DNA from: Prorocentrum cordatum
Taxonomy: Eukaryota; Sar; Dinophyceae; Prorocentrales; Prorocentraceae
NCBI GenBank assembly: GCA_963575745.1
Contig: CAUYUJ010019945.1
Span: 1 to 64,000 of the forward strand
Reading direction: 5' to 3'
Length of the DNA stretch: 64,000 nucleotides
How positions within the stretch are numbered: position 1 is the stretch's first letter; every line of letters starts with the position of its first letter. A program made the translations under genes and the position numbers. The notes beneath the pieces were generated by a model. The model saw nothing but the letters and a program-made list of their open reading frames with translations, was not told the DNA's origin and ran no database searches. This document shows, in pieces, positions 3 to 50,873 of the stretch.

Positions 3-2293
3 CAGAGGAATTTGCTGAGTTGCCAAAGCTACAAGTGGAAAGATATCGAGCAGGCGATGGAGAAGACAAAACCACATTTGCGCGGCCAAGTTGGCGACAT
101 GATCGAGTTTCTGAAAGTGTACAGCGGTGGAGACAATGCACCGTTGCTGCAAGACGTCGCTGCATATGCGAAGTGCGTCGGGGATAAGATGCGCGACGTG
201 CATGGGACCACGTTCAAGATGCTATCACAGGTGCCGTTCCTACAGGGACCTACCTTCATTGGCGCATGCGTGAAAGCATGCATGGTGTGCCCAGCGCAGT
301 ACGTCAAGAACGGGGTTAGCAAGCTCATCAGCAGCTCCGACTTCTCCTCGCTCAGCCAGCCCGCCAGCAAGCTGAAAGCCGACGCCCTGGAGATTTGCGC
401 CGCCACGGAGGTCGCGGAGGCATGGCTATCAAAAGTACATGGCATCGACCCTGGAGTTTCGGCCAGGCTGATCGGGGACATGCAAGTGAGATCAATCATG
501 ACGTGCCTCAAGAAAAAATCGAAATCCACGAAGAACTACGAGACACTGAATGAGGTCCACGCGCTGTTCATGGTGGATGCGCGGGCGGCGCAGCCGCAAT
601 GCATGGAGGTTAAGCCGACTCCGTTCGAGACCGAGGCCGAGGAGGACATCAACGAGCGCAGGGCCGCGTCCGCTGGCGTCGCCCAGTTCTCCAAGGGCGG
701 CGCGCTGAGCGACCGCGTGATGCAGAACAATGGCCTCGTTGTTGGTAAGAGGGTGCGGCATAAGACTGACCACAAGACGGTGCGCGTCATCCAGAACCTC
801 GAGAGCGGCAAGGCCACGCTCGTGAGCCAGGAGTGGTGGGACGAGGACATGCGTCGGCGGAAGCAGAAGACGTCCAGCACGCCTGTGGAGAAGATGGAGC
901 TGGTCGTGTCTTTCGGCTGCGTGGTGGACGAGTGGGAGGCTGCTTTTTTTGTTGATTGATCTCTCCGCCCTCATGCTGCTATCAACTGCACGTATACGTG
1001 TAGTTGATAGCCACATGAGGGCGGCGATGGCGGTAACGTCGGCGACAATGACGACAATCTGCGCGAGGGGGGGCGGATGAAGCCTCAAAAAAAAAAAAAA
1101 CGGCTGTTCGACGAGTAGCCGACCTTAAGACGACGGCGGCGTTGGCGACGACGACGGCGACGACGACGGCGACGACGACGAGGACGACGCCGACGACGAT
1201 CGGGGACGACGACGACGACGAGGGCGACGACGACGACGACGAGGACGACGGCGACGAGGAGGAGGAGGAGGAAGACGACGACGACGACGACGATGAAGAC
1301 GGTGACGACGACGAGGACGACGATCGTCGTCTTCGTCGTCGTCGTTCTCCCCGAGGAGAACGACGACTACGAATAATTAAGAGCGCTCTCAGCTGGTCCC
1401 CGTCCCCGCCGAGATCATCACCAATGTGTCCAACGTGTTCGAGCAGGCATTGGGTAACGACCAATGCGCGATCGAGGAGTTCAAGGCCCAGGTGCACGCG
1501 CCTTGCCGTGCTTTGCCACTGATGATACGGATGCGGATGAGGACGGCGAGGAGGAGGATGATAAGAGGGAGGATGATGATGATGAGGAGGAGGACTGGCT
1601 GGGCTGGGCACTCGGCGGAGACCTGGTCAACGCAGTCTTGGGGTCCAACGGGCTGGACTCATTCTGGGCCCAACGGAGGGCCCTGCCCGAAGGTTCCGTG
1701 CACCCCAGTCAGGTAAACCCCACGAGGGAAGGAGGGGTGACGGAGGAGGATGAGGAGGATCCCCCATGTAGTGCTTGCCCCCCCATGTGCGATGCGCGCT
1801 GAAGCACGCCTTCGTGCGCTACCGCGCCGATGTCACCGTTGTATCTACCAAGATGTCGAAGAAGGTCGTGAGCAACACTGGTTATAAGAAGGGTGAGCTC
1901 ATCTTAGTCCCCTTTACCCCATTTATCTCCCACAACACGAAAGTGCCCGCAAACGCTGTCGAGGTGCCGTCGGCGCTGGAAGATATCGATACGAAGGTGT
2001 ACGTGTCCCCGAAGTTTGAGGCCCCGTCCCCCCAGAGCGATGAGAGCAATACATTCGTCGTTCCGTTTTGGTGCGTGGCTTCAAACCCTGACAATGCTGC
2101 TGTGAATATGGTTCGCTCGACAGTGTCCGTGAAGATACAGGTCATCATTGGAGAGCGCTCCGCCCACTCTGAAGTGACGATCCCCACGCTGACGAACACT
2201 AGGAAGATTGCTGCGGGGAGCGAGCTATTCGTCAAGCCAGGTGCACCCACTAGCAAGGAGGCCGACGCTTCTAAGAAGCGCAGGACTTGCTGA
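3..2293 (+). CDS. Family A protein, copy 1 (5' partial, three exons)
   Basis: Unrecognised protein; family A is my label. The frame is open from base 3, so the 5' part is outside the window. Exons were traced by similarity to the second copy at 35577-38838 (minus): exon 1 to about 930-957; exon 2 about 1390-1515 (peptide VSNVFEQALGNDQCAIEEF); exon 3 about 1785-2293 with a basic C-terminal KKRRTC tail before the stop. Shared blocks include LILVPFTP against IFKFTPTAP, and FVVPFWCVASNP against FFAPRWWVESTP. Both introns are absent from copy 2, whose sequence runs straight through these positions. No signal peptide, membrane segment or known catalytic motif is visible. It is the first gene of the A-B-C-T module. 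The copy looks open apart from introns, but expression cannot be judged. Function unknown. Confidence 0.6.
966..1023. repeat. 58 bp palindrome inside A1 intron 1
   Basis: Two arms of about 27 bases (CCGCCCTCATG, short mismatch, CTATCAACT...) meet at a central ACGTATACGT and mirror almost perfectly. It lies in the intron between exons 1 and 2 of family A copy 1 and is a compact foldback, possibly a tiny MITE. Confidence 0.8.
1138..1345. repeat. GAC/GAG trinucleotide tract
   Basis: Imperfect (GAC)n with GAG and GAT interruptions fills most of A1 intron 1. Acidic open frames here (D/E runs) are products of the repeat and are not annotated as protein. Confidence 0.85.
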
Positions 2294-2970
2294 GTCCACA
2301 GCCTGGAGGCGCAGAGTTTTGCATCGCATTGCGCAGCACGAGGATGTTTTTTTCAGGAGCACTGCGTGCTGCAGGCTCGCGGTTCGGGCGGTAGTCGGGG
2401 AGGGGTGGCGGGAGGGAAGGATGGGAACTCAAGGGGTGGAGGCGGCTTCCGCTCTGAACCATGATGGGCGCAGCAAGTAGGAGGGTGGAGTTTGCCGCCC
2501 ACGCGGATCGGTTCGCTTGACCCGCCTCTCAATGTCGCTGCATCGATGCATTTTTTTGAGACAGCGGCTCTGGCGAGAGGTGGTCGCATCCGACAACTGC
2601 GGATCACCGCGACGCAAGTGCAGAGCTGCGGTGCCTTCAATGACAAGGCTAGGCGCGATGATAAATGCAAAGAAGGCCCCAGACCCCCCAAAAGAGCCCC
2701 AAGAGGGCCCCGCGACGCCCCAAAAGAGCACCAAGCAGCCCCAAGAAGGCCCTAAGAGGACCTCAGGAGAGCCCCAAGAAAGAGCCGCATGAGGCCCCAA
2801 GAGGGGCCCAACAGAATCCCAAGAGGGCCCCAAGATGCCTCCAAGTTTCGGAACGCACGCAAGTTTAAGATACAAATCAGTGCAACAGCCATTACGAGTC
2901 CTCGAAATCCCTCACCTCTCATCGAAGCACCATCGAAATTTGCACCCATTTCAATCTGAAACTTCAATGC
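2152..2970 (+). repeat. A1 tail unit, copy 1
   Basis: An about 820 bp unit that begins in A1 exon 3 (GAGAGCGCTCCGCCCACTCT), runs through the stop and a T-run, then unique-looking sequence and an imperfect CCCCAAGAGG minisatellite at about 2680-2840, and ends CTTCAATGCGG. It is repeated directly at 2971-3889 and again at 13003-13845. Confidence 0.85.
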
Positions 2971-3186
2971 GGGAGAGCGCTCCGCCCACTCTGAAGTGAC
3001 GATCCCCACGCTGACGAACACTAGGAATATTGCTGCGGGGAGCGAGCTATTCGTCAAGCCAGGTGCACCCACTAGCAAGGAGGCCGACGCTTCTAAGAAG
3101 CGCAGGACTTGCCGAGTCCCACAAGCCTGGGAGGCGCCGAGTGTTGTCATCGCAGTTGCGCATCACGGGGAATTTTTTTTTTTTTT

Positions 3187-3227
<41 letters not shown>

Positions 3228-6682: not shown

Positions 6683-6770
6683 TGTTCTCATGTGGTGCGT
6701 GCGATGTGGCTTTCCACCCTCGCCCCACGCACTCCCTCCCCATCATCTCTCTCCATGTCCCCCTCCACTG

Positions 6771-6790
6771 GCGTAGCTGGTTTGGCTCAC
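6771..6790 (+). other. Relict DinoSL upstream of C1
   Basis: GCGTAGCTGGTTTGGCTCA matches the DinoSL at 15 of 19 positions and ends 46 bases before the C1 ATG. Confidence 0.6.
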
Positions 6791-6835
6791 AACGGCCTGT
6801 TTACCATTGGTTCGCCACGCGCCTCGTGCCGCAGC

Positions 6836-8816
6836 ATGGGCGACGCCGACCCCGTCGCCACCCGCCTCATCGGCATGATCAACGAGCGGGTCAGGTTCAT
6901 TGGGGCCCAGGCTTCAGCAGGGCTGAACATGGATGCGGCCAAGCAATCGCAGGTTCGCGCCCTGGTGCAGACGATCTCCACGACGAACGACGTGACGTAC
7001 GCCGTGGCAACCGCCGTCACGGCGGCCATTGTTGGAGGGCCATGGACCCCTGAGCAGGTCACCACGCTTGCGACGGCGCTGAGCGACAGGGCAGCGTCGC
7101 TCGAGGGAGAGGCCACTTCCACGACCCAAGCGCGGCCTCAGCAGAAGGCCAAATACATCCATAACTTCTTCACTCGCACGGACTACGAGACCTTCTTGAA
7201 CGCGCACCTCAGCGTCCAGGCCAAGACGGAGGTCATGGCCGCTCGCATGCACAAGGTGGGCGTGTCATGCCCGTCGGAAGACTTGCAGATGAGGGGGGTG
7301 AGCATCCTCATTGCATGCAGCGCGGAGCTATCGTCTAGCAGCCTGACGGGCAATAGTAAGAAGCCCATGTGCAAGCAGCTCCAGTCGGAGATTAAGAAGC
7401 TCGACAAGACGAAGGGGCACCCGTACATCCATGAGAAGGAGCTCAAGGCCCACCCTCAGTTGATGGGCCAAGGGAGGTGGGATTACGCGTACACCGCCGA
7501 CGACCCGCCAGTCCAGCCTAACGCGGGGCAGGTCGAGATGATCGAGGCCGTGTTCCAGGGCATGTGCTGCAGGAAGTCCAGCAACCAGGTGGGGGACAAG
7601 CGCGCTGATCACCAGACGCAGCCTGGACCCCTGGCAGTGGCTCAGCCTTCAGCGTTCGGCCCGAGCGGCCAGCCACAGGGTACCGACTTCATGCAGATGC
7701 TGATGATGACCATGCAGACCATGTGCCAATCTATCAACGGTTCTGGTCAGCGGGCCATCGTCGACGGCAGCGGGGCGGGCTCATCGGGCCTGCACGCGCT
7801 CAAGCCCCAGCTGAGGAGTCCCCCCCCCCCCCCAGCCAATGCAAAGGTGCCGAGCATGGATGCGACTCCGCCCATTGGCGGCGGCGGCGTGTCCAACGGT
7901 GACCCAACCTCCGCCTGGGGTGCGAGCTCGGCGGGCGACTCTCCTGCAGCGGCGGACCAGGCTCCCTCAGGGGCGGCTGCGGCAGCCGACGACGAGGCCG
8001 CCGCCTTGGAGGAGTCGATGAGGCGCGCTTCCCACGAGGCGAAGAGGAGGAGGAAGGCTGCGAAGGACGGTGCCGACGAGGCCCAGAGCGCGGCCACGAA
8101 CACGGACAAGGGCTGCACGGGCAAGGCCAAGGCCAAGGGGGAGCCCAAGGCGAAGGCCAAGGGCAAGCCCAAGTCCAAGGCCGCGCCGTCCAACGGCGGG
8201 GAGGGGGTTGGGCGGTAGGCACTATGCGACGTAATGTGTATAGCGTGCGTGCTCCCCCCAAGCGTCCGCCCGCTCAACGGGACCCCGAGAAGGCCCCATG
8301 AGGGGCACGAGGGGTGATGAATCGGAGTCGGAGTCGCAACAGATGCCAGATTATACGACTGGACCCTGTCATTTGCATTCGTCTATGCACATGCTATACC
8401 ATATGAATGCAGGCAGGCAGAGAAGGATGGGGGGAGAAAGAGGAGTTGGGTGTGGATGAGGAGGATGAGGACGAGGAGCAGGTTTACAGGGGGCCCTCCA
8501 GGGCCTTGCGCGAGCATGGTAGGAGGGAGCGGATGAGTAGGCATGAGGGGGGGAGGGGGTGGATGGGGCGGTCGCTCCTCGGGCCATGGGGTGGGCAGGT
8601 GCCGATGCGAAACCGCTCAAGCACAGCGTCGACTACAAGGCCTACCTGAGGCCGACCGATTGCAAAGGGAGGACCATCGGTGCATACACGTCTCGCGCAT
8701 ACACCTCAGCCATCAATCTTGCGAAGCACGCGGGTCACACTGTTGAGGATCAGAAGCGCATCGGCAGGGAGGCTTATCAGAAGGCCGTCCTTGTGTTTAA
8801 GAAGCATGGGGCGTGA
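6836..8816 (+). CDS. Family C protein, copy 1
   Basis: Unrecognised protein, the longest intact frame of block 1. The ATG at 6836 (MGDADPVATRLIGM) is chosen over upstream in-frame starts because those lie on or before the spliced-leader relic. Exon 1 runs to about 8205: an alpha-helical N-terminal half (LVQTISTTNDVTYAVATAVT, NFFTRTDYETF), then a Pro/Gly/Ala-rich linker and a Lys/Ala repeat (KAKAKGEPKAKAKGKPKSKA). An intron of about 395 bases (CAG-G acceptor near 8600) leads to exon 2 with a C-terminal helical domain (AYTSRAYTSAINLAKHAG) matching the end of the copy at 46776. That copy has no intron there but has one elsewhere. Basic and disordered regions could suit nucleic-acid binding; function unknown. 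Confidence 0.65.
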
Positions 8817-9587: not shown

Positions 9588-9746
9588 GGCGGGATACTGG
9601 AGTCAAGGCGCGACGAACGTGACCTTGCAGGGGGGCCTGTATCCGAGTCCTACCCTGACCCACTGGGCGGCGAGAGGGGGCATGGCCAAGTAATGAAGAG
9701 GACGTGGGGAATTGGTCTTTGGAATGGGGGGGGGGGGGTTGGAGGG

Positions 9747-9768
9747 TCCGTAGCCATTGTGGCTCAGC
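9747..9768 (+). other. Relict DinoSL upstream of T1
   Basis: TCCGTAGCCATTGTGGCTCA plus two bases match the 22-nt DinoSL at 19 positions. The next bases (AGCCATTCTAG) resemble a second, truncated leader, the layout expected after repeated trans-splicing and reinsertion. It ends 38 bases before the T1 ATG. Confidence 0.8.
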
Positions 9769-9805
9769 CATTCTAGATCGTGTTGTTCTGTCGACCACTC
9801 AGACA

Positions 9806-11883
9806 ATGCAACAGTTCGTATACGCTGTTCTTGGTGCATGTTGCATCTCTGCAGCGTCGTCCATATCAATGACTTCCCTTCCACCTGCGCCGAAACGGTG
9901 CAAAGTGATAGAGCTGGGCAGGAAAAGCCACGTCACTGCGAGCGCACTCTGCAACTTACTCAAGGAGTTGAAAGACCAGCCATTGCCAGCCTTCTCCAGC
10001 CGAACCACCCAGCGGCGACAGCGAGAGCAGATCAGCAACGAGAAAACATCGTTTGGGCCTTTGCTTCAAGAGATGAATGTTAGCGGTGGGGGTGGACATG
10101 CTGATGATGTTGTTTTAGATTTTCAGCACCCTCTTGCATGGTTGGAAGTTGCGTGTAAAAAAAAGTGAGTCGTACCGCGATATGGTGACAACAGCTTTGG
10201 ATAAGTCCGGAAACAAGATGTCCATACTACTTTACTCAGACGAAGTAACACCAGGGCAAGCATTAACGTCCCACCATACACGCAACATACAAGCCATGGA
10301 CTGGTCATTTTTGGAGCTGGAGTTTCCGACGCTCTCAAATGAACTAGCGTGGGCCACCCTCGCGGCCCCGCGGACCGATGCGGTCAGATATGTTCAAATA
10401 TGGGCGTGGGTTGTTCTTTGGTGACACTTATGATTTACGGGCGGGTGTTCACGTTCAGATTGCAGGGGAACTTCGCCCCAGACTCATTCATGGTTCCCTT
10501 GCTCTGGTGATTCAAGATGAAAGGGCGCACAACGCCGCCAGTGCCGTCATGGGAGCGACGGGCCATAAATTATGCCCCCTATGTAAGAACGTAGTGGGGC
10601 ACAAGAGTTCGCTGTTGCCAGATCCTGGCCGATATTTAATTCCCGCCACGGAAATAGACGTAAGTAAGTTCGATCTTCACAGCGACGAGTCTGTGAAGGC
10701 TGTGCAAAGACGGCTGGCGCAGATGGCAGCTTCGGGCACTCAGGCTGAATTGGAGGAGCTGGAAACTCTTTTTGGATTCCATTTCGTGCCAACGGGCATG
10801 ATGCAATGTCCGAGGCTAGACGTGAACTTAGTGTCGACGTGGGGGTGGGATAGGCTCCATTGTTACGTGGTGGGTGGGGTTTTCAATAACGAGGTCGAGG
10901 AGTTGGAAAGCAGGCTATCGCAACACGGTTTGGGTGGGAAACAGATTGGTAAATATATTCAGCGGTTTAAGTGGCCGAGCGGTTACGCCAACGCCAAACA
11001 AGTATGCAGGTCAAGGGCTGACAATTCCCCGAAAGATTTAGCGAGTGAGATGCTGTCATTTGCACCCGTCCTGCGGAAGTTCCTAGTGGACGTAGTGATA
11101 CCGACGAAGTTTCTCGAGGACGAAGTGCAGAGCGCTTTGGCGCTCATCGATGTGCTTGAACTTCTGAACATTGCAAATTCGGGTGAGGTGACCCCAGCCG
11201 AGCTGGGGGTAGCGATCTGTACCCACTTCGCTTTGCATCAGGTTGCATACGGTGATCTTCTGTGGGTTCCCAATGCCCACTATTGCCTCCACCTCCCTAC
11301 GCAAATGTTGCAGCACAAATTCATTTTGTCGTGCTTCATGCACGAGCGTAAACATCGGGTATTGAAAAGAATGGCGGAGCATCGGCACAGCCTCCAGAGC
11401 TATAACAAGGGCCTCTTGCAAGAATGTACAGTCCAACATCTGTTTGACATCGACGGCCCGATCGAAGCCACAAGCTTGATTGAGCCAAGACCCGCAAATA
11501 AAAATATGATCCAGATTTTGGATTCAATGTTCAGCTTGCCTCACGGGTGCGAGATCTTGACTGCCAGGTCTCTGATTGCAAACAGTCGCAAAATTGTGAT
11601 GCAATATAGTGTAGCGTATGTTTTAGCAGATGGCCGAGTTCGTTTCGGCTGCGTTTGGTTTCACTTCAGCATTGGAGGAGCGTGCTACAGCTGCATAAGC
11701 CAATGGGAGATGTTGGAGGTGACAGACACTGCAGTGAAGTGTCGAACCTCAGATTCCCCATATGTGTTTTTGAGTAGCTGCATTTTCGAGCCTTGCACGT
11801 TCATGCCTTCAGACGTCGGCAAGATATGCTCAATCATTTTACCCCCGAAGCTCAACCAACGGGTGAGGCGCAGCAGAGCGTGA
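9806..11883 (+). CDS. Family T, copy 1: transposase-like protein (two frame breaks)
   Basis: Intronless copy of about 690 codons in three frames: 9806-10150, 10150-10390, 10390-11883. The first break lies in an A8 run (10147-10154), the second near 10385-10395; removing one base at each restores a protein collinear with the copy at 48069-50850. Landmarks: YSDEVTPGQ (acidic motif after a hydrophobic strand), CPLCKNV (CxxC), WGWDRLHCYVVGGV (D-x-x-H), and HYCLHLPTQ...CFMHERKHRVLKRM (H-rich block followed by E and basic residues). Spaced D, D and E in such contexts recall DDE transposases of the Plavaka/CACTA-like type. I also recall this as a very common uncharacterised dinoflagellate family. 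Transposase identity is inference; breaks may be real or sequencing errors. Confidence 0.6.
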
Positions 11884-12066: not shown

Positions 12067-12103
<37 letters not shown>

Positions 12104-35380: not shown

Positions 35381-35576
35381 TTTCATTGTTTACAGTGGCG
35401 CTCGTAAACATATGTCGCATGTGCGAGCGCGTAAATGCATTCGTATATTGACACAGAGCGAGAGCCTGGAACACATTGTTCGATGGGCGGCCGACGGCCT
35501 TTGAGGAGCTTCTGCTCGAGATGCAGTACATCAGTGCACCAGCCATTGTTTTTTTTCCACCGCAACGTGAATGGAC

Positions 35577-38838: not shown

Positions 38839-38853
38839 AGACCTATCGCCGCG

Positions 38854-38874
38854 ACGCAGACGTTTTGGTTCAAA
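38854..38874 (+). other. Relict DinoSL upstream of gene H
   Basis: ACGCAGACGTTTTGGTTCAA plus one base matches the DinoSL at 15 of 21 positions, 39 bases before the H start codon. Confidence 0.5.
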
Positions 38875-38913
38875 TCATTTCCGCCTGCGCCCTTGTGTTG
38901 TGGCACACCCCCC

Positions 38914-39264: not shown

Positions 39265-39409
39265 GCGAGAGTGGGAATCATGCGGGGTGTCAGCGCATGA
39301 CAAAACATAATGGTCACATATGATTCGGGGTTGTGTCGGTATGAGCTGTCGCTCTTGAGCTGTCCCTCTTGCAAACATTGCACGTCGAGGGTATCATCCT
39401 CATCCAATG

Positions 39410-39430
39410 TAATAGCCGTTTGGGGTCAAG
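39410..39430 (+). other. Relict DinoSL upstream of B2
   Basis: TAATAGCCGTTTGGGGTCAA plus G matches the DinoSL at 15 of 21 positions and ends 34 bases before the B2 ATG. Confidence 0.55.
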
Positions 39431-39463
39431 GCAGCAGGGGAGAGCTTGCCTTGCTTTGCAAGC

Positions 39464-40210
39464 ATGGACCTGAACGTTACTATTCAGACGTCGGTCACGG
39501 TCACCGCGCATGGCGGTGGCAGTCGGATTTCGAAGTGGAGTCTAAAAGTGGTGATGGCGAGAGGCGGGACACACGCGTGCGTGGTGGTTAACCCGCGCGA
39601 TCGCCCCTTGATCCGCATGGTCGCTCGCCTGGCGGGCCTGTGCTTGGACGGCGTGAATCTCAAGAAGGCCTCCCTCAGCAACACTGCAGGGCACATGATG
39701 CTCAAGGAGTTGCGCCAACAAGCAAGGCCGAAGCTGCTCGTGAAGCAGACTCATCAGGCCGCGGCGAGTTCAAAGCTCTTTGCAGGCGGAAGGGTCGACA
39801 AGTACACCACGCCTGTGAAGACTTCACGGGCGCAGAGACCGTCGAGAAGTTCAATTGCCGACATTCGCAGTCGCCGCGAGATCTGCAGCGTCAGCTCGAC
39901 GGACGACGTCTGTGCCGAGATGCTGCAGAGTCCGGGCCAAGCGGACGACATCGTCGCGAAGGCTACCAGTGAGAACATTATGGCGGTGGCGCGCTTCATT
40001 GCACAGCACCCCACCGCCGAGGACTTGACAAAAAGTAGGGTGCGGGGCAGTTCGGGTAAGAAGGGCATCTGGAGATGCGGAGATGGCTGGCACCACAAGG
40101 GCCGCGGCAAGAAGCTCGCCGTGGAGGTGGGGGCGCCGAGCGGAGCTGAGTCCATGGACTTGAGCGGCCTCTCAGATGCCGAGGCGCCCGCGGACGCGCC
40201 GCATGACTGA
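39464..40210 (+). CDS. Family B-like protein, copy 2
   Basis: Intact 248-codon frame from the ATG at 39464 (MDLNVTIQTSVTVTAHGGGS). The N-terminal 80 residues weakly match B1 (SKWSLKVVMARGG against SSWCVKPSVVDGI, followed by a hydrophobic/basic helix). The middle is basic (TTPVKTSRAQRPSRSSIADI); the C-terminus has a Gly/Lys stretch (GSSGKKGIWRCGDGWHHKGR) and an acidic end (SDAEAPADAPHD). Charge pattern and lack of hydrophobic segments suggest a soluble, perhaps nucleic-acid-associated protein. Homology with B1 is tentative; position in the module supports it. No introns. Confidence 0.5.
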   Translation: MDLNVTIQTSVTVTAHGGGSRISKWSLKVVMARGGTHACVVVNPRDRPLIRMVARLAGLCLDGVNLKKASLSNTAGHMMLKELRQQARPKLLVKQTHQAAASSKLFAGGRVDKYTTPVKTSRAQRPSRSSIADIRSRREICSVSSTDDVCAEMLQSPGQADDIVAKATSENIMAVARFIAQHPTAEDLTKSRVRGSSGKKGIWRCGDGWHHKGRGKKLAVEVGAPSGAESMDLSGLSDAEAPADAPHD

Positions 40211-40789
40211 CAGAAGGGGGGCGTTTGACACCAAACACAGTTTAATCGACCTTTTCGGTCCGCGCCATCGACTGCTCAGTCCATCGAACGTTCGGTCCAC
40301 GCAGTTATCCGCTATTCGTATACATGCACAGATATATCGCGATGCAGTTATCATCACGGCTACCAGTGCAATTATCAACGACGGATTCGCCACCGACCTT
40401 TCGGTCCACGCCATTTGAACATGCCCTCCAAGACTTGCCCGATGGACCTGTGACCACTGAGTGGTTCACTGCTGCCGCTGTGGCTCAAAACCGTGAGGAG
40501 CGCAAGGCTTGCAGGAAGCCCTCTTCTAGCACGATTCCTGCAGGCCGTTAGTTTTGGCGCGCCAGTCTAGGGGTGGGGAGGAGGGATGGGTTGGGGGGAG
40601 GAAGCTGCTGTTGGCGGGCGTTGCGACGATCACAACTCATCTCACATCTGTGCCACCGCACCATCATGTATTACCCCATCCTCGGTTACCTCCGCCTGCC
40701 GCCGCAACCCCCGTCAGGTGAAGGTCCCCCCCCCCCACCCACCCACCCACCCACCCCCCACCGCTCCCCTCGCGCATTTACTTTCACGA

Positions 40790-41895
40790 TGAGCTCGGGC
40801 GTCATGGCGAACACTGCTGGTATGTTTGGCGCCACGGTTCCGACCAAGAAGAGGCCCAGTCCCGCGCCGCCGATTAGGAAGGGCAAGGGCAAGGGCAAGG
40901 GCGCCAAGCCTGCAGGTCATGACCACCCGGCCCCCAAGTGGGAAGGTCCTCCTGCTCCAGCAGCCATGGATGACCACGTCGAGGACGAAGCTGCGAAGCG
41001 AGCTCGCCTGCAGGAGACCGCGGCCATGAAGATCCTGAAGCTCAAGACCTTGCCAGGTCAGCAGGAGGACAAGTTCACGGATCTGGTGATCATCAGCGTG
41101 GACGGCTCTCTGCTCGAGAATGCTCAGTCCGACGAGCAGCACGAGAAGAACAAAGTGGCATGGAAGGTTGCACCGTCTTCGAACTCACCGCAGACCACTC
41201 GGTCGTGCCGCTCGGCGCCCTCTTACTAACATCATCACGCCGCTGGTGTTTTGACATCAGCGTTGGTAAGATGTTAGTGAGAGGGTGCCAAGCGGTTCAT
41301 CGTGTGGGTGGCTGGTGCGTTCGGGACCACCATGCAGATTTCTGGGCGCTACTGGAAGATCGGCATGATCGACGGCAGCGCGGTCTACAGACAGGAACCG
41401 CCACAGAACTCCAGCAGCTGGCTGAACAACGAACAATTGTTCTTGTGGCGCAACGACCACATGAAGGAGGTGAACCACCGCGGGTGGTACATCACGAAGA
41501 GCATGTCGCTCGAGAAGAAGGAGTTCGAGTCGGAGGGGAACATCTACGCGTGGTGCCCGTCGCGCCCAGGTGCGCCGCAGACGTTCCCCGAGGTGGCTCA
41601 CATCCCGCACTGGTGCAAGAAGAAGCACCAAGCGGTTTCCATCAAGAGCGGGGTCGTCTTGCTCCACGAGCTCGCGGCGGCCGCGAAGGAGGACGCCCAG
41701 ACGCACAAGTGGCTCATCGGGCAGCTCGCGTGCTCGGGCTGGCAGACTTCGCCTGATTGGAAGACGTTCGCGGAGGCGATCATGATGGCGAAGGAGATGT
41801 CAGTCGACTTAAACATCTCCGACGAGCAGCTGAATTGGTGGATTGTAAATGCCAGCGAGGCAGCGGCGCTGATGGAGACTGGAGCAGGCCTCTGA
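40790..41895 (+). CDS. Unknown protein D, interrupted by a hairpin
   Basis: From the ATG at 40790 (MSSGVMANTAGMFGATVPTK; upstream in-frame ATG at 40666 also possible): a Lys/Gly-rich N-terminus, then a helical stretch and TDLVIISVDGSLLENAQ. Near 41160 the best frame changes to CTVFELTADHSVVPL. After removal of the hairpin (about 41214-41292) reading continues as RFIVWVAGAFGTTMQISGRY, then WKIGMIDGSAVYRQEPP, WLNNEQLFLWR, GWYITKSMS and YAWCPS. The last blocks resemble a short Gly/Trp/Tyr-rich domain I recall from many dinoflagellate proteins, of unknown function. The C-terminus is helical, stop at 41895. One indel and one intron or insertion are needed for a full product. Confidence 0.5.
41207..41297. 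repeat. About 90 bp hairpin inside gene D
   Basis: CCGCTCGGCGCCCTCTTACT faces the reverse complement of AGTGAGAGGGTGCCAAGCGG across a short loop, pairing over about 35 positions with few mismatches. Excising about 79 bases joins two coding stretches. Confidence 0.8.
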
Positions 41896-42918
41896 TGAGC
41901 CCACCGCCCATCGCAGCCAGCGATAGGTTGGCCAATGCGTGTTGCGGCCAGTCGTTCGCGCTCGCGGCCAGCGTCAGGTTGGCCAATGCGAGCGGCTGCT
42001 GATGCAATGCCATCGCACTTTGCGGTAGTGATGTAATAGGTCGGCCGAGGCGCGTGGAAACGCGCGCGCGACCCACCCATGCACGCAAGGTGCGCGGCCC
42101 ATTGGACGAACAGTTGCGGGCCCAGTTGGTGCGAGAGCAACTGCTCCAGATGCGGCCCCAGTTGCGGGCCCCAGTTGCGGGCCCATGATCGAACGATCCT
42201 TGCAAACACGCATCAACAAAACCATAATGGCACCACTGGCCCCTTGCACTAGTCAAGCACATATTGTTGTTTTTTTCTGCTATGTGGGGTAAGTGCACCA
42301 TCGCACAGCTCTCGAGCCAGCCGTGCATGCTATATGTTTTGATTGCGGCTGATGGCCCACAGGATGAGCATCACAGAGGGGGGAGAGGTCACACAGGGGT
42401 AGCAGCAGTGCAAATGTTCATCCAATGGGCAGCCCCGCAGCGCGCAGTGACATAAGGACTGTAAATACGTTCTTTTCCTAGCTCGCTCGTGTCGCGGCGG
42501 TATCGGCGACGACCCGCAGCGCGGCTGTGGGTGCGACGGCTCGCAGCGCGGTTGCCGCGCCACCATCTAGGGCACACCAGCATCATAATGCCGCGCGCAT
42601 TCGCAGCTGGGAGCGGAAACGTCCTCATCCTCTCCACCTCGTCCCATGCTATCCTGACGTCTCCAGCCCGCCTCCGATCGTCTAGATCACGTACCCTGTC
42701 GTACTATCTATGTCTGCATAGACTCCTCAGTATAGTTCGCTCCGTCTTGTATTGAGCCGAGCTGCCTCGTGAACATGTGTCAGTATAGACGTTTCGGATG
42801 TTTCTGAATGAACCTTGAGACTGTTTCGGAAGGTACGTGGTACTTCGGCGGAGCACCAACATTGTAGATTTCATAGTGATGTCAGTTCGGATCAGCCATA
42901 CCCGACGCAATCTCAGTT
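41896..42918. other. Intergenic with short repeats
   Basis: Two GGTTGGCCAATGCG repeats at 41920-41992 and GGCCCCAGTTGCGGGCCC-type repeats at 42110-42185. No gene supported. Confidence 0.6.
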
Positions 42919-43078
42919 TGCACTCGATTTTGGAATTCTAAAATCGAGTGCAGCGGAATGTGCACTCGATTGTGGAATTCCAAAATCGAGCGCAGATGAA
43001 CGTGCACTCGATTGTGGAATTCCAAAATCGAGTGCAGAGGAGTGTGCACTCGATTGTGGAATTCCAAAATCGAGTGCA
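42919..43078. repeat. Array of four 34 bp hairpins with 42 bp period
   Basis: Four near-identical palindromes (TGCACTCGATTGTGGAATTC then CAAAATCGAGTGCA) start at 42919, 42961, 43003 and 43045, separated by 8-base spacers that differ. Each has GAATTC or GAATTCT at its centre. Confidence 0.9.
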
Positions 43079-43353
43079 GGATTGACGCAACACCATTTGC
43101 GAAGTTCAGTGTGTAAGATCCGCAGGATATGATGTGCAGTCGGGGCGCCGCGGTCTGTCTTGGGTCTGGAAATCATGTCGTCTTGGGGCGCATTGGGGAC
43201 AGCGTCTCGGCCGATTTGGGTTGCATTGTAGCATATATCTGGCTTATGATAGCAACGACTCGGTGAGCGCGAGCTCCACGAACGTGAGTTCCAGCAAGAG
43301 CGTGAGCTCGACGAGGTGGCCCTCGATGCTATAGGCGTTGCGGTTCAAGGGCC

Positions 43354-44041
43354 ATGTCGGCAGAGCCACCGCCCCCTGGGTGCCCGCCTCCCGAGCGCGG
43401 GCCTCCAGCCTGCCCGCGGCCGATGAGCTCGGCCTCGGATGGGATTCCTGTCAAGAGACCCGCCTCCGAAGGCGAAGCCGCCGCCGCCGAGTGCGCCCAA
43501 CGGATGCCCGCAGCATCCGCCTGAGCCTCATAGCCAGGAGGCAGAGAACCGCGTTTACATGGTGGCCCTCCACAACAACGTGAAGACGTTGCACACGACG
43601 GTGTGCGGTCTGTGCGAGCATGCGAACTACTTGCAGAAGAAGGTCGAGACTCTGGAACAGGGGCTTCGCGCTCGAGACCAAGAGCGGGATCAAGAGATCA
43701 AATCCGCCATCAAGAAGTTCGACGAGGAAGCGACGACGAGGGTAAAAAAAGCGACGCAGGAAGCTAACGTTCCGGAGATTCCGGCGAAGAAGCAGCCGCA
43801 GATGTTCAGCATCGGCCTCACAACGGCAGAGACATCAACAGTCAAGAAGGACGAGCCGACGCCAGAGAGCGACCTCAGCGGGAGTCGGGTGGTACCAAAC
43901 GGAATCACGAATGAGCACGTCGGGGGCCGCTGCAGCTTTCGCGGGGGGCAAGTCGGCGTCAAGGACAAGTCGAATACAACGCACGTCGGGGATTGCACCG
44001 TCGGCTCCAAGGAGAAGTCGAAGAAGAAAGACGGCAAGTGA
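43354..44041 (+). CDS. Coiled-coil protein E (frame break near N-terminus)
   Basis: Two candidate N-termini. The ATG at 43354 gives a Pro/Ala-rich segment in one frame (MSAEPPPPGCPPPERGPP ... GIPVKRPASEG) that stops near 43525. The main frame is open from the ATG at 43439 to 44041: Pro-rich start, then a coiled coil (NYLQKKVETLEQGLRARDQE, RDQEIKSAIKKFDEEATTRV), a Ser/Thr/Asp-rich middle and a Lys-rich end (GSKEKSKKKDGK). A 14 of 21 match to the DinoSL at 43329-43349 is too weak to decide the start. No counterpart in block 1. Function unknown. Confidence 0.45.
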
Positions 44042-44502
44042 GGGTGCGGCTGCCGGCCTTCGCTGCATGGTGCGTTACAGAGCACCTCGGCTGATGCAGC
44101 GCATAAGCGAATCCGCCTGCCTGCAGGCGCAGAAAAATCCAGCCCTCCACTCCTCATCCTCGAGCGAACCGCTCTACGTGTCGATGGCGCTCTTCCGATT
44201 TCTCGCAACGACGTGCTCAGCTTTGCACTGCCGCATGTTACTCTCGCATGTTAAGTGCTACATGGACAGTCGTGCCACGCGCACTGGCGTCGTATACTTC
44301 ATCCAGTGCTACGTGCACATATTACGCTACGTAAGCAAACAAGACGAGCGGCATTGTGGACCATGTGGTCAATGATACATGCCTGTATCTCCGCATCTTT
44401 TTTCTGCTCAAGCGCGCGGGCTGGGTTTGCCCCGCGCGCTGAGACCATCCCGCGCGCGCCCTCCCCGCGCGCTGAGCCCCCGCCCCTCGGTGGGGATTCA
44501 CC
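44042..44502. other. Intergenic, nothing recognised
   Basis: CGCGCG-rich near 44410-44480; no coding region supported. Confidence 0.5.
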
Positions 44503-45480
44503 ATGGCGCCCATCGCGGGAATTGTTCAGGAGATCCAGGACGTATCGCGTCCTGATAGAAGTTCGAGGCCGCGGCGAAAAGGCACTCAACGTCTGCGCGA
44601 ACATGTGCAACAGCACCTGCTTGAAGATCGCTGGCCTGCAGTGGCAGGCAGGATTTGCGCTTCACTTCACCGAGGTGGCAAGATTTTAAACCATTTTGAG
44701 GATCTCTGCATGAGGCTCTGCACGGAGCCTCGCGCAGTGTCGATTGGAGGGGGGCCGGGGGGGATGCAACAGCCGATGCGATCGCATATCAGATCGCAAT
44801 ACCATAGGTGATGCAGAACAGCGTTCTGACGGACGCCATGAAGGATGCCCTTCAGGACGCCTGTGACCAACGGTCTACATCCCTCGCGGCGGCGGCTGCG
44901 GCGGGGGCCCCCATGCAAGTGCGCGGCGCTGGTGCGCCAGCGCGCGATCAGCTCCTGCGGTGCCCCAACAACTACCTCACGAACAAAGACTGGATTGCGC
45001 TCGAGAGACCTCAAGCCACCTGCGAGGAGCGCGACGAGATCGTCGTGATCAGGCTCGGCTCGGTTGGCGTTCGCCACGCGAACGAGGACGGGCTGATGAA
45101 GTGGGTCATGCGCCTCCTCATTGACATCTAGCAGCGGCTCCACGGGCACTGGCAGTCGTACAACGACATCTACAAGAGGGTAGCCTGTGGGGAAATTCGG
45201 ACGCCCCCCCCCCCCCCCCCTCCCTCGGACGCCCAGGCCGCAAGAGCTACCAAGAGGCTGCCAAGAGGCTACCAAGAAGCCCAGGACGACAGCCAAGAAG
45301 CCACAACCAAGAGCCCCGAGCGAGGATATAGATAGACCCAAACATGTCTTACACTGCCCCAAAACTGCCACCAAGATGCCTCGCATGACGTGGTTTATGG
45401 GGTACCTGGTGGGTACTGTTTGAAGCAACGGAGGGGCGATGCACGAGATCCCAGAAAACATCCCATAGTTTTGGGACCCA

Positions 45481-45536
<56 letters not shown>

Positions 45537-46776
45537 AATATGCCACACTACGCGTGAGATGTGTGCCGACATGCGCGTGGCGGGCGCATGAGGTGGTCTT
45601 CGGTGGAGCTCAGATGAAACGTGTTCGTTGCGAACGATATGAGCGAAAGATTTGGGGCGACATACCTTACCCCCCCCAACGGAACACGTGGTGATGACGA
45701 CCATGACAACGGAAAGGGTGACGAGGTGGATGAGAAAACGGCTACCGAACGCCACGACCCAACAGTCCTGGATGGTTTGCACAGCTTTCTGCTAAACTCG
45801 CATTGGGTCGAACTTTATGATCTTTTACCTCGCCCAATGAGGTGAAGCGCGTGAGGTCGTTGTTCACCAACCAGCAGCCCTGGGTGGGCACGTACACCGA
45901 CAGGTTCCCCGACGACCCCGTCGGCACGCACTTGATGAGTTTCTACTCGGCAGCAGATCCTCCGATCGCGCGGGCCAACCACTCGTGCGCGTACATCAGC
46001 CAGCACGTGAGACAGATGACCGCATGCATAATGCAGATCGGTCCGACCCAATGCAGCAAGCGCTTGCCACCTGCGTGCAGGCGGTCAGAGCGGCCTCCGC
46101 TGCAGCTGCAGCTCCTGGCAATGACCTGAACCTCGCGTACGCGGGCAAGTACGCGCAATTGTCGCCCTCGGGGTCATCGCAGCGGTCGCGCCGTGGAGAC
46201 TGGGACTCCCAGCAGTCATGGGATTCGTGGGCGAGCGAGCCCTGGTCGGAGAGCAGCAAGGCTCACTTCAAGCCAAGGCTGGCGATCGACAACGGGCCAG
46301 CCTCATCGGCAGCAGCAGCCCCCGCTGCAGCAGCACCACCACCAGCAGCAGCAGCAGCAGCAGTCGCACCTGCAGCAGCAGAAGGCGAAGATACAGCAGC
46401 AGATGAGGAAGCTGGCTGGGAGGAGGCCGAGGGCACTGGCGAGCAGACCTTAGAGCAGTACGAGGAAGAGGCATTCACTCGCCTCAAGATGAGGAAGCCA
46501 GCAGCTGCTGCCACCAAGACAGGTGCTGCACCAGCCGCGAAGAAAAGGCCCGCTGCAGCGGCCCTGCAGGGCGAGGCGAAGACGATCAAGTACACGATCA
46601 AGTGGGAGAAGGCCGACAAGCAGAGCACCAAGAACGCCTTCGCGTCGAGGCACTACGGCAGGGCCACGAAAATGGCGAAGGAGCAGTTCCCTGGCATCAG
46701 CGAGCTCGACCTGAAGGCGGCCATTCAGAAGGTCTACAGGGACGCGGCGGCGCTCTGGTCCAATCACATGGGCTGA
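44503..46776 (+). pseudogene. Family C, copy 2 (degenerate)
   Basis: Collinear with C1 in pieces. N-terminal pieces 44503-44690 in two frames (MAPIAGIVQEIQDV; LIEVRGRGEKALNVCANMC). 44808-45179 (QNSVLTDAMKDALQDAC; NNYLTNKDWIALE; SVGVRHANEDGL), preceded by an in-frame TAG and broken by a TAG at 45129-45131 between IDI and QRLHGHW. An intron 45180-45841 with AG-G acceptor, then WVGTYTDRFPDDP and FYSAADPPIARAN. A frame change near 46020, a Ser/Ala/Gln-rich linker, and the C-terminal helical domain (ASRHYGRATKMAKEQFPG to SNHMG). Matches C1 blocks NFFTRTDYETF, KVGVSCPSEDL and YTADDPPV. Two stops and frame changes argue against function. Confidence 0.6.
45180..45841 (+). other. C2 intron with C-run and TA/TG microsatellite
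   Basis: Lies between YNDIYKR and VKRVRSLF. GTAGCC donor, CAATGAG-G acceptor, phase 0. Contains C16 (about 45205), CAAGAGGCT repeats and (TA)n(TG)n at 45485-45538. Absent from C1. Confidence 0.6.
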
Positions 46777-47036
46777 GGACCGCTTTCGGGCCCGCGCTCG
46801 CGCGGGCTCAGAGTTTTTGGGGTGGCCGCAGAGGGTATCTCGTCCTCATGGCCACCGAAAATGGGCGAATGAGCGCGCCTGTCACGTCCTGAATGGACAC
46901 ACGTCCTTTGGACAACCATGACTCTGAGTCAATTAAGCCATGTCGGCCAAGTCCACGCGGACACGGCTTTATGACTATGCAGTCCTTCAGGCCTTGCGCC
47001 TCGGTCAAGTCCTCATGTGGACGCACATGTTTTTGT
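46777..47036. other. Intergenic
   Basis: No repeat or gene recognised. Confidence 0.5.
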
Positions 47037-47057
47037 ATGTAGCCACTTTTGCTCGAG
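47037..47057 (+). other. Relict DinoSL upstream of gene Z
   Basis: ATGTAGCCACTTTTGCTCGA plus G matches the DinoSL at 16 of 21 positions; AGCCTTCCTGGC right after it may be a second, older relic. Gene Z starts 68 bases downstream. Confidence 0.6.
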
Positions 47058-47125
47058 CCTTCCTGGCATCCGCTGCAGGCGGCTGCAGAATCATCTACCG
47101 AACCCGCTGACGCCCGTGCACGACA

Positions 47126-47521
47126 ATGGCGCCGAAGCGAGCAGTACGTAACATGCCTGCCCACGACAGGTGCATGCTGACGGCGTGCAAGGCCCAGTTC
47201 CAAGCTGCAGTTGCGACGTACAGGGTCATGAAGAGCACGCTGCGTAAGCGGAAGGTGCACCTTGGTGGTCGGTCGTCAGCGTCCGAGACGAAGCTGGCCA
47301 CGGCTATGAAGAAGCACACCGACACGCTTGTGCCGCCGAAGAAGATGACGCACGCGTCGACGCAGACGACGCCCACGAAGCTGGGCGTCCTGCCGAAGCC
47401 CATCACTGCTTTCGAGGACCTCGATGGCGTCTGGTGTCGTTTCACCTTGCCCAATGTCTACAGTGGCTGCACGGCGCACGACGAGCAGCCCACCATGGCG
47501 AATATTTCAAACGGCTATTGA
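47126..47521 (+). CDS. Small basic protein Z
   Basis: 131 residues from the ATG at 47126: basic N-terminal half (MAPKRAVRNMPAHDRCMLTA, RVMKSTLRKRKVHLGGRSSA), a Thr/Lys stretch (MKKHTDTLVPPKKMTHASTQ) and a neutral C-terminus (LDGVWCRFTLPNVYSGC). The stop falls where sequence related to family T begins, so the C-terminus may be truncated or newly acquired. The leader relic upstream supports the start. Charge suggests nucleic-acid binding; no family recognised. Confidence 0.45.
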   Translation: MAPKRAVRNMPAHDRCMLTACKAQFQAAVATYRVMKSTLRKRKVHLGGRSSASETKLATAMKKHTDTLVPPKKMTHASTQTTPTKLGVLPKPITAFEDLDGVWCRFTLPNVYSGCTAHDEQPTMANISNGY

Positions 47522-47650
47522 GGCCGAGCGCCTCATGGCCAGGTGCGTGAAGTGCACTGAGGCGATCTATGCACAGCATGATCGCGCGCAAATGCGTCAA
47601 GGAATGCAAAGCGTACCTTGCGCGCTCGTTCATACATTGGACCTGCGCGA
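47521..47650 (+). pseudogene. Family T fragment, inverted relative to T2
   Basis: GCGTGAAGTGCACTG, CTATGCACAGCATGATCGCG, and AAGGAATGCAAAGCGTACCT with CTTGCGCGCTCGTTCAT match T2 around 48900-49040 (minus) with two internal deletions. A decayed third copy of family T. Confidence 0.7.
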
Positions 47651-47875
47651 AGTCGTTGGGCCGATGAGCTGGGCGTGACAGACGCCAGCGTTGCAGCGCT
47701 TCGTCGTATCGCGGCCTGCGTCCATGGATGAGCAGCGGGATCTTGTTGTCTATAGCGTAAGTGCTGGCTCGTGTACAGTTTCCTTCGTTCAGAGAGGGCC
47801 GCTGCAAGCGGGTGAAGCCGCGTGGATATGGATTCAAAAAGAACACCGAAGGTGACGAGCCATCGCGCTCAGTTG

Positions 47876-47998
47876 ATGGAGCTTCGCTCAAGATGGAGCT
47901 CCGCTCAAGATAGAGTCCCGATCAGGACGGAGCTCCGCTCAAGATGGAGCTCCGCGCTGAAGATTGAGCTCCGCTCGAGATTGAGCTCCGCTTAAGGG
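47876..47998. repeat. 17 bp tandem repeat
   Basis: Seven or so units of CTCAAGATGGAGCTCCG with variants (CTGAAGATTGAGCTCCG, CTCGAGATTGAGCTCCG). Confidence 0.85.
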
Positions 47999-48068
47999 AG
48001 GGGAAGGGGTGGAGAGGACGCTGACGCTGATGAGGATGACGTGCACTTTGTGATCCCGCCCCGCGGGA

Positions 48069-50850
48069 TCAGATAGCCCAGCGGTGCGCCACGGGCACGA
48101 GGGCATCCACGTGCCCGCCCGTGCGCTTCCTATACGGCACCGCCCCCAGGATGTCTGACAACGGGCATAGGCGTGTTGATCCTGAAGGGCGCCCCGATGC
48201 GAAGCCATTGCCTGCATCGGTTACGGGAAAAATCGCAACCAGAGCGCGCAGCTCGTCGACCACTGAGGCCGTAAACCAAACCTGCCCTAGCACAGGGGCC
48301 CCTCGCCCGGGCGTCATTATTATTACATCATTGGTGTGAACGACCTCGAACTCGGACACCCTGGCAGACTTCGCAGTCATGCACGTGTTCTTCCGAGCCC
48401 GTGGGAGACCCAGCTCGGAGACCATGAATTCTGCCACCTTGTCCTTGGCTGACTTCGGGTCCTGCAGCTTGACGCTGACATCGAATTTGTCGTGCACGCG
48501 CAGATCGTGAAAGTGCTTGCACGTCACCTCGGACAGTACGCTCTTCTCCATGGAAGCTGTGTTGCGCATGCCCTCCGAAAGCCTGGGGCAATTATGGCAT
48601 CGCCCGGTCGCTGCATCGCAGTCCGCCAATACGTGGCGCATGCGCCGCATATTAGCGGAGCTGTGCGGCTGATGTCGTAATCACCCGAGAACCTTTTGAC
48701 CATCTTGTGCTTCTTCTCGTGCGTCCAGCACGCTAACAGAGTGCCAAACCTCTTGTGCTCGATGACCAGGTGCAAGGTCCAGTGGAACTTCGGGTGCAGA
48801 TACGCGCCCCGCCCTGCGTCCAAACACGCCTGCAAGAACTTGTCCACCTGGACCCTGAGCTCCCGCGATGTCACCTTGCCGTGCGGCACGGCAATCAAGA
48901 GGTCCATGATGGACGAGCACGCAAGGTACGCCTCGCACTCCTTGGTGCAAATACCTGCCCTCAGCCACACGTTCCGCACGAAGTGCGCGATCATGCTGTG
49001 CATAGAGATCGCTTCCGACGCAGTGCACTTCACGTACTTGGCCTTGAGGCGCGCTTTCCACCTGGACGGCGAGAAGACGTCGACGAGGGCGTCAGTCTTC
49101 GTGCCCATCCTTTGTCGAAGATTCCACTGTCGTAGCAGGTCGTGGATCGCAGCAGGGGCGCGCACCTTCTGATCCAGCAAGCTCTTCGCCAGAAGGTACA
49201 GCGTCGTGTTCCACGCGCCGTGCACGACGAACGTGCGCATCCAATCGTGAGCGAAACAGCTCACGGGCTTCACGACGTTGCGCACGCCCCTCTGCAGAAG
49301 CAGGGTGAACCTGCAGTGGTTCATGCCTGCAGCCATCTCTCGAAGCTTGAGCTCCCGCGGCCTTGTCGCAGCGACGACCGCCAACCTCTCGACGCTGCCT
49401 CGCAGCTCCTCGTCCGTCGCGAAGTCCATGGCGGAGCCGACGGTGATGGTACGCGACAACATGTCCTCCCCGTCCTCGCCAGCGATCCCGCTGCTCTGCG
49501 AATGCAGGTTCTTGCAGAGAACGCATGCCTTCAGTCCAGCATCGCCCTTCACGCAGAATACCTGCTTGTGAGCACCGCCATCCTGCAAGATCATGGTGAG
49601 CTTCGCGAAGAGCCGCGTGCTCGAGCCATCTGGGAAATCCCTTGAGCCCGCTGGGCTTCGGCGGTTTAGCAAGCTGACTCTCTCACTCTTTCCATCTGGG
49701 AGTGGTTCACCCGTCCCCTTATGGACCTGTTCAGGGCGCCCCGCTTGGTGTCAGATGGTCCAAGATGGCCGCGGCTCCGAGAGGGCATCCAAGTGCCCAA
49801 GACGGCCCAAGACGGCTCCGAGAGGGCTTCCAAGATGGTCCCAGATTGTCCAAGATGGCCTCGAGTGTCCAAAAGAGCTATGCTCCGATGCCGATGCGTC
49901 CGAGGCGTCAGAGCCCCCTCCGCCCCCTCCTCCCCGTCCTCATCCTCCTCTCCCCTCCTCTCCTCCTCCTTCTCCTCCTCCTCCACCTCCTCCTCCTCCT
50001 CATCCCCCCTTCTCCTTATGCACCCTCCTCCCCCTCCTCCTCCTCCGCCTCCTCCTCCTCCTCCTTCGCGGGCGGAGTGCCGCGCGCCCGCCTGTTACTA
50101 AGGCCCGACGGCCCAGAGAAGGAGCACATGGTGCATATATGGGATGGTGGAGGGACGCGAAACGTCAATAATTCAGAACTGCTCCCGCGTCGAAACTGTG
50201 GCCACTGGCGTTTAACATCATCTTGAGCAAAGCTCCGAAGACCTGCGCGACGCCACCGCCGTAGTTCTTCACTCGATCAGACCGCTCACACGCAAGGCAT
50301 ATCCACGCGTCTTCGTCCGTCAGAAGCGACCCGAACTGCATGAAGGACACGCACACAGCCCAGCACTTACGCTGGCCGTGGCCTGACAGCTGGTTGCCTG
50401 GGACAACCTCGTCGGCATAGACCACAAGGTTCCACGGCTCGTCCATGGATGGAGGCCGCGACGCAATGATGCGCTGCATGGCCTTCGCGAAGCCGCCGCC
50501 CGCAGCGCACGCCTCGTTGAGGAAGGCGAACGGGTTCACCACCATCATCTCGCCTCCCGACGAGCCGCCGCCGTGCTCCATGGGCAGCTTCGCGAGTAAC
50601 GCTCCGTACTCGCCGCTGCCGCGCATGATGAGGTCCCGCGCCTCCTTAATGGCGCTGCGGTTCCTGACCTCTGGCACGTCATAGACGCACTCCTCCAGGA
50701 TGGCGCTCGGCGCGGAAGCCGACGTGCGAGGAACCCTCAGCTTGAATGCATCCAAGCGCCTGAGCTTCTGCTCCCGCTCTCGCTGTCGGTCCACGCATGA
50801 CCAGCGCTTCGCGCGCGCGCGCGGGCGGCGCGCGCGGGAGGAGGGCGCAC
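48069..50850 (-). CDS. Family T, copy 2: transposase-like protein (three exons)
   Basis: Exon 1 about 50850-50175 (start not resolved: the first frame residues come from the leader relic; clear protein from RNRSAIKEARDLIMRG on); exon 2 49640-48683; exon 3 48572-48069. With GA-AG introns at 50174-49641 and 48682-48573, spacing to T1 is exact (11 residues from AG to R-L-I/F; 14 residues from K-R to the next block). Motifs: VVYADEVVPGNQL, KACVLCKNLH, FAHDWMRTFVVHGAW, KFHWTLHLVIEHKRFGTLLA followed by CWTHEKKHKMVKR. These parallel the YSDEV, CPLC, WDRLH and HERKH blocks of T1; the D, D and E residues are candidate DDE catalytic residues. No frame break is needed, so this copy could encode a full protein. 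Transposase role is inference. Confidence 0.65.
49641..50174 (-). mobile_element. Introner-like element D = T2 intron 1
   Basis: Minus strand begins GAATTATTGACGTTTCGCGT and ends CTAAACCGCCGAAGCCCAGC then GGGCTCAAG, matching both termini of the element at 60147-60958. The intron borders required by protein alignment fall at the element ends. Inside: CTCC tracts and CCAAGATGG minisatellite. Confidence 0.75.
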
Positions 50851-50853
50851 CTC

Positions 50854-50873
50854 CTCGAGCCAAATGGCTGCGA
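50854..50873 (-). other. Relict DinoSL upstream of T2
   Basis: Minus strand TCGCAGCCATTTGGCTCGAG matches the DinoSL at 17 of 21 positions with one gap. Confidence 0.65.

Follow-up and report, generated by a model that had tools for sequence, protein, structure and literature searches.

A large multigene transposon encoding a predicted RAG1-like transposase with a BAH-like C-terminal fold in the dinoflagellate Prorocentrum cordatum

Two diverged sets of the same genes, each with a transposase-like gene, lie within one stretch of the Prorocentrum cordatum genome. Are they copies of a mobile element, or a gene cluster that was duplicated and then joined by a transposon? The window, that is, the whole stretch of 64,000 nucleotides analysed here (C19096:1-64000; GenBank contig CAUYUJ010019945.1), had been read in an earlier note as carrying families A, C and T, and probably B, in the same order in block 1 (3-11883) and block 2 (35577-50850). 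We compared it with the 4.13 Gb assembly of this one genome (21,875 contigs). Our conclusion, to which we give a probability of about 0.92, is that each block represents one copy of a large DNA transposon of the cut-and-paste type with several genes, and that T is a DDE transposase of the RAG1/Transib/CMC kind with a BAH-like C-terminus. The large transposon, one of two origins offered in the earlier note, is thus supported by co-occurrence of the families in fixed order, inverted ends, 2-bp duplications and a transposase of DDE type whose predicted fold is RAG1-like. The two blocks are old, distantly related copies, hereafter element 1 and element 2. The contig begins inside block 1, which leaves the A end of element 1 off the contig.

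Element 2 has both of its ends in the window. Its similarity to a copy on contig C15560 breaks off at 34161 and 51627, with satellite beyond, and the borders are as follows.

34161..51626, minus strand: element 2, a multigene transposon of 17,466 bp with terminal inverted repeats at both ends (the minus strand encodes A2 and T2, the plus strand B2 and C2)
34159..34160, no strand: left target duplication, TA, 2 bp, matching 51627-51628
51627..51628, no strand: right target duplication, TA, 2 bp, matching 34159-34160
34161..34192, plus strand: terminal inverted repeat on the A side, starting CTTGAATGAATCC, 29 of 32 bases matching the opposite end
51595..51626, minus strand: terminal inverted repeat on the T side, the inverted match to the A side

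The inner 24-base pattern of the repeat occurred in the window only at these two ends (up to 3 mismatches allowed; 0 expected). The C15560 copy is bordered by TG on either side, again a 2-bp duplication. The transposon ends are of the CT..AG type and read CTGAGATG or CTTGAATG, with direct repeats just internal to them. Terminal repeats and target duplications outside A and T, for which the earlier note had called, were therefore found around block 2 (29/32 inverted ends, TA). The gene coordinates given before held, and the extent of block 2 is replaced by 34161 to 51626. The orientations were also as described, with B2 and C2 opposite to A2 and T2.

Some further observations concern element 2 and its surroundings. 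Over 34080-37738, inside element 2, the window and contig C13307 agree at 100%, and beyond that they diverge abruptly. C13307 also has near-identical copies of A1, C1 and T1, as a segmental duplicate, a haplotig or an assembly join would. Plus-strand open frames lie in the region of the element to which D, E and Z had been assigned (40552-41895, 43427-44041, 45985-46776 and 47111-47521), and Pfam gave no match for the element 2 open reading frames (ORFs) 40552-41226, 41281-41892 and 45841-46773. A satellite of 11/21/32-bp units (CTCTTGGGG-like) occupies 2200-5000, 11900-13900, 22400-24150 and 60450-60700, next to or within block 1 as well as in other places, and is also present at the flanks of the C15560 copy.

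Younger copies elsewhere in the genome, the X family (T frame of 706 amino acids), show the same kind of ends. Compared with locus L058 on the T side, 10 of 13 other loci were 98.4-99.6% identical and three were 89-94% identical. All 14 loci (L055-L068) share one end point and have 13 different flanks, and three more distant loci in the same comparison gave no alignment at the shared X end. Matching 2-bp direct repeats bordered each of the six copies for which both ends were available (TA in four, CT in one, CA in one); the CT and CA repeats show that these are true duplications and do not belong to a palindromic end. On C18711 the X copy measures about 15.7 kb (363096-378796), a size taken from end coordinates only.

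The families also travel together across the genome. Matches numbered at least 94 for A2, 119 for T2, 84 for T1, 125 for A1, 89 for C1, 15 for B2 and 44 for C2; removal of second pieces of the same locus left 81 A2, 100 T2, 122 A1, 74 C1, 42 C2 and 11 B2 loci, and the 84 T1 matches were left unmerged. The window's own loci are included in all locus counts, and neighbours (A versus T, C1 versus A1 or T1) were counted within 25 kb. A T2-type match lay near 48 of 81 A2-type loci (0.098 expected) and T1 near 43 of 122 A1-type loci (0.124 expected), mostly at an A-T spacing of 7-14 kb. The lineages hardly mixed: no A1-type locus (0/122) was near a T2-type match, and the two A2-type loci (2/81) near T1 are, from their coordinates, this window and C13307, a near-duplicate of part of it. 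A1 was found near 45 of 74 C1 loci, always upstream on the same strand (45/45), and T1 near 46, always downstream on the same strand (46/46); 27 had both and 10 had neither. Among 42 C2 loci, 33 were near A2-type and 25 near T2-type matches, 21 near both and 5 near neither. Gene order A-C-T is common to both lineages, with B beside A in lineage 2 and in a further family, Y. The orientation of C with respect to its neighbours A and T varies: C1 shares theirs in 27/27 loci with both neighbours, and C2 near A2-type matches lies on the same strand in 25 cases and on the opposite strand in 8, the window among the latter. Y-family A frames have 519-553 amino acids (e.g. L031) or 532 (e.g. L035), and a B-type frame lies 3' of A on the same strand at 10 of 11 A loci (L028-L038); the eleventh, L032 on C16567, has a B2-type gene instead. 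Dispersal of the families independently of each other, which the earlier note had set as refuting, was not seen in this one genome.

T has these coordinates in the two elements.

48069..50902, minus strand: T2, transposase with a predicted RAG1-like DDE core and a C-terminal BAH-like fold (open frames 50165-50902, 48524-49750 and 48069-48680)
9659..11883, plus strand: T1, transposase of element 1, in three frames (9659-10168, 10119-10424 and 10348-11883)

We built a hidden Markov model (HMM) from 34 T relatives, without the window sequence. It matched T2 over model positions 2-204 (E 3e-51), 209-526 (E 1.1e-84) and 495-690 (E 8.3e-23), and T1 over positions 17-95, 93-175 and 197-687, thus spanning both nearly end to end. 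Homology of T1 and T2, as claimed before, was confirmed by blastp (26% over 317 amino acids, E 1.7e-14) and by the T profile against T1 (E 2.2e-39). An intron and a frameshift are indistinguishable as causes of the three frames of T2. T1 is probably broken in the window, because it is spread over three reading frames; four T1 relatives at 96-97% identity retain a single frame of 714-747 amino acids. The homologue P0014, also from P. cordatum and among 120 listed, is 78% identical over 74% of the query. All seven motifs were found in T2. The motifs are near-invariant among the 120 homologues (114-119 aligned per column) and occur in both window copies. Their layout is as in RAG1, the enzyme that cuts antibody genes, with CxxC and HxxxH between the second D and the final E. 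T is therefore predicted, with the help of structure models, to be an RNase H-type DDE transposase of the RAG1/Transib/CMC kind with a BAH-like C-terminal fold. Pfam transposase models matched none of the 34 T homologues at E 1; weak Pfam matches of single homologues below curated cut-offs (AflR at 0.0077, and others) were set aside. A scan of IMG/VR with T gave no relative, and a viral structure library gave nothing at E 0.001. Inside element 2, a plus-strand open frame at 47679-47852 resembles T2 around the first catalytic motif (E 1.9e-7) and adjoins it in the opposite direction. It may be a piece of another T, and it gave no match to the T HMM at E 0.05.

The genes that accompany T are these.

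35577..37088, minus strand: A2, last exon (A HMM E 3.7e-175, from a profile that includes this ORF; at least 94 genome matches)
37170..37643, minus strand: A2, second exon (A N-terminal HMM E 2.9e-37)
38344..38625, minus strand: A2, first exon, formerly 'H' (A N-terminal HMM E 1.2e-18)
3..959, plus strand: A1 of element 1, truncated by the contig start (hhalign E 1.8e-9 to the A2 family; at least 125 matches)
1859..2128, plus strand: further exon of A1 (A HMM positions 339-425, E 2.8e-8)
39446..40210, plus strand: B2, conserved protein, divergent from A2 (11 distinct loci including the window)
6692..8218, plus strand: C1 (74 distinct loci)
44808..45128, plus strand: C2, first exon (an A2- or T2-type match close by at 37 of 42 distinct loci; similarity to C1 at z 7.2)
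45821..46129, plus strand: possible next exon of C2, weak (one 8-residue collinear match with C1)

Direct blastp of A1 against A2 and of C1 against C2 found nothing at E 0.01. The homology of A1 and A2 was established by profile comparison (probability 96.3, E 1.8e-9) and by the A HMM, which finds A1 at E 1.5e-13; A2 also ranked first of 242 block-2 ORFs for A1 against shuffled alignments (z 13). The A profile contains the A2 last-exon ORF 35577-37088 itself. For C1 and C2 the claimed homology is supported, and sequence alone is no proof of it: 44808-45128 ranked top of 242 ORFs (z 7.2), phmmer gave only E 0.027, and positional backing comes from both C families sitting between A and T in the genome searches. 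The region formerly taken as a gene of its own, 'H' (38047-38838), is actually the first exon of A2. B2 stands beside A2-type genes at 11/11 loci, divergently, 2.1-2.9 kb from A. The B2 protein (39446-40207) is 100% identical in the window, C15560 and C13543 copies; in the same C15560 and C13543 copies A has drifted (88%, 83%), as has T (92%, 91%), and stronger constraint, conversion or chance may each account for this. A has relatives in metagenomes, and a protein search with C1 found nothing. No scanned A, B or C ORF matched a Pfam family above cut-off, and, with regard to a RAG2-like beta-propeller partner as in RAG1-RAG2 or ProtoRAG, no kelch model was among their matches. Candidates below curated cut-offs were set aside, namely Vp20_capsid (E 0.24) and NMT1 (E 0.12) for A and Caldesmon (E 0.019) for B2.

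Ratios of nonsynonymous to synonymous substitution rates (dN/dS) were low between subfamilies. T gave 0.27 when two X-type copies were compared; between two Y subfamilies the values were 0.22 for A, 0.19 for its N-terminal exon and 0.23 for B (dS 1.1-1.7, near saturation). From these values (0.19-0.27), T, A and B appear to be maintained by purifying selection.

Several results weigh against the transposon reading or against parts of it. Within lineage 2, dN/dS was 1.15 for A and 0.89 for T, so A and T of element 2 look relaxed, although both ends and all recognised genes are there; a pair of nearly identical X copies gave 1.06, which with 9 changes is little informative. The ends of element 1 were not found, and no terminal inverted repeat was recognised by eye in 11820-12120. 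The B1/B2 relationship suspected earlier did not stand, since no block-1 ORF resembles B2 or Y-family B by profile comparison, shuffled Smith-Waterman or HMM. B2 and Y-family B are themselves weakly alike (hhalign probability 4%, E 0.01; HMM E 0.03), and in the HMM test an unrelated ORF, 20721-20894, scored better (E 0.019). The structure model of A is poor (predicted local distance difference test, pLDDT, 48.6). Foldseek comparison of modelled T with RAG1 gave TM-scores of 0.39-0.46 by query length, root-mean-square deviations mostly of 9-11 Å and identities of 9-12%; the match is one of common arrangement, not a close one, and sequence searches linked T neither to RAG1 nor to a Pfam transposase. 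Fragment T2b has E in the column of the first D and T2c has T in the E column, which we read as misplaced fragment ends because the motif-holding fragments T2a and T2b show D and E. Lastly, among the matches listed, a scored T within 25 kb is lacking at 33 of 81 A2-type loci and at 79 of 122 A1-type loci; contig ends, decayed copies or a T beyond those matches may be the cause.

These T-less A loci are what an ordinary gene cluster would leave if it had been duplicated and an unrelated DDE transposon had landed beside it, the other origin offered in the earlier note. We consider this very improbable: the order is identical and the spacing similar at dozens of sites, A and T are enclosed by a single pair of inverted ends bordered by a target duplication, and copies with sharp ends and distinct flanks already contradict it. 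The transposases are only about 26% identical, across the genome A goes with the T of the same lineage, and block 2 alone has both ends. That the copies are haplotigs of a few loci, produced by assembly or segmental duplication, is less credible still. C13307 and C1367 do match A1, C1 and T1 of the window at 99-100%, and C13307 also A2 at 100%; C16879 matches A2 at 100% plus at least 80 bases of left flank, and C18537 and C19174 have one flank in common. C16879 and C13307 thus agree with the window in left flank or in neighbouring genes, so some copies are duplicates of one insertion. Against this as a general account stand 13 different flanks among 14 young-family ends and, in 6/6 checked copies, matching 2-bp duplications that differ between copies. 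We take the element to be real and not an artefact; its transposase fold is unexpected, and its accessory genes and exact placement are less settled.

Where, then, does this transposon belong? Transib and RAG make a 5-bp target duplication and have CAC-type heptamer ends. RAG1, ProtoRAG (BbRAGL) and Transib appear to have the RAG1-type core fold in common with modelled T, whereas here the duplication is 2 bp, the ends are CT (CTGAGATG / CTTGAATG) and no match exists at the sequence level. In comparison with RAG1/ProtoRAG, the putative reader here is fused to the transposase, and none of A, B and C reaches the cut-off of a Pfam family. Two-gene EnSpm/CACTA elements are alike in being multigene, in the CMCT motifs and in repeats just inside the ends, and their transposase domains may share the BAH-like C-terminal fold; they differ in CACTA-type ends and a 3-bp duplication, neither of which was seen here, and the accessory proteins here have no Pfam family above cut-off. 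Second element-encoded proteins are known in En/Spm. A plain EnSpm/CACTA, Mirage, ESTA or other named CMCT lineage, its extra proteins being captured host genes, is an unlikely identity that still deserves weight, as it would account for the C(2)C and H(3-4)H motifs, the RAG1-like fold and a 2-bp duplication inside the CMCT range (excerpts of PMC12730594). The excerpts give this clade target duplications of 2-5 bp and 5'-CA..TG-3' ends in most cases; our element fits by motifs and duplication length, and its CT..AG ends depart from a rule that is not absolute. Against that identity stand ends of CT..AG rather than CAC and Pfam transposase matches at E 1 in 0/34 T homologues. A and C, moreover, are present in both lineages, and relatives of A are found in metagenomes, which argues for long-term passengers, not recent captures.

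As described in the same excerpts (PMC12730594), fungal EnSpm-like ESTA elements, which have TA duplications and in some families TET/JBP, resemble ours in RAG1 similarity by structure-aware comparison and in CMCT motifs. Here, TA is common, bordering four of six X copies and element 2, but CT, CA and TG occur too, and no TET/JBP match to Pfam was found among the subset of window ORFs scanned. Plavaka, there credited with 2-bp (or 2-3 bp) duplications, C(2)C and H(3-4)H motifs and TGT..ACA or CATCA..TGATG ends, is alike in duplication and motifs and differs in its ends (CTGAGATG or CTTGAATG here) and in the lack of a Pfam transposase match for T. KDZ (Zisupton/Kyakuja), with 7-8 bp duplications in those excerpts, was dropped in view of the 2-bp duplication and RAG1-like fold. 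A dinoflagellate paper mentions EnSpm (PMC3229502). The comparisons with EnSpm, Plavaka and ESTA use descriptions of these lineages rather than a transposase tree. Among the titles and abstract openings listed, with subscription journals mostly outside, none describes a multigene transposon of dinoflagellates that is RAG1-like or bears a BAH domain, nor a four-gene CMCT member. An undescribed RAG1-type branch in dinoflagellates, and probably other marine plankton, with a fused BAH-like reader, conserved partners A and C, a B-type gene beside A and copies about 99% identical, is a tentative placement that we hold at somewhat less than even odds.

For the transposon that we favour, T would pair both ends, excise the element and join the ends to a target, in most cases TA, that is cut with a 2-bp stagger. 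The RAG2 PHD finger ties RAG to chromatin, and in En/Spm TnpA assists TnpD. By analogy, the BAH-like domain may tether the complex to chromatin or histone marks, and A, B and C may be accessory proteins aboard the element, for example binding the repeats inside the ends or countering silencing; these two are the weakest steps of the scheme.

Between the two elements, adjacent plus-strand open frames at 19095-22249 with a YADD-like motif resemble a non-long-terminal-repeat (non-LTR) reverse transcriptase. PF00078 has at least 150 matches genome-wide, none on the window's contig among the matches listed.

A RAG1-fold transposase with a built-in chromatin reader in a protist would bear on how RAG and CMC transposases diversified and acquired chromatin targeting, and dinoflagellate chromatin is itself unusual. 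DNA transposons carrying three or more conserved genes have multiplied in a dinoflagellate genome of several gigabases, and annotation built on Pfam would overlook them, since none of the tested proteins reaches the cut-off of a Pfam family. With copies that are nearly identical, activity can be tested through polymorphic insertions. If the reading is true, protists have a RAG-like, chromatin-coupled, multi-protein transposition system.
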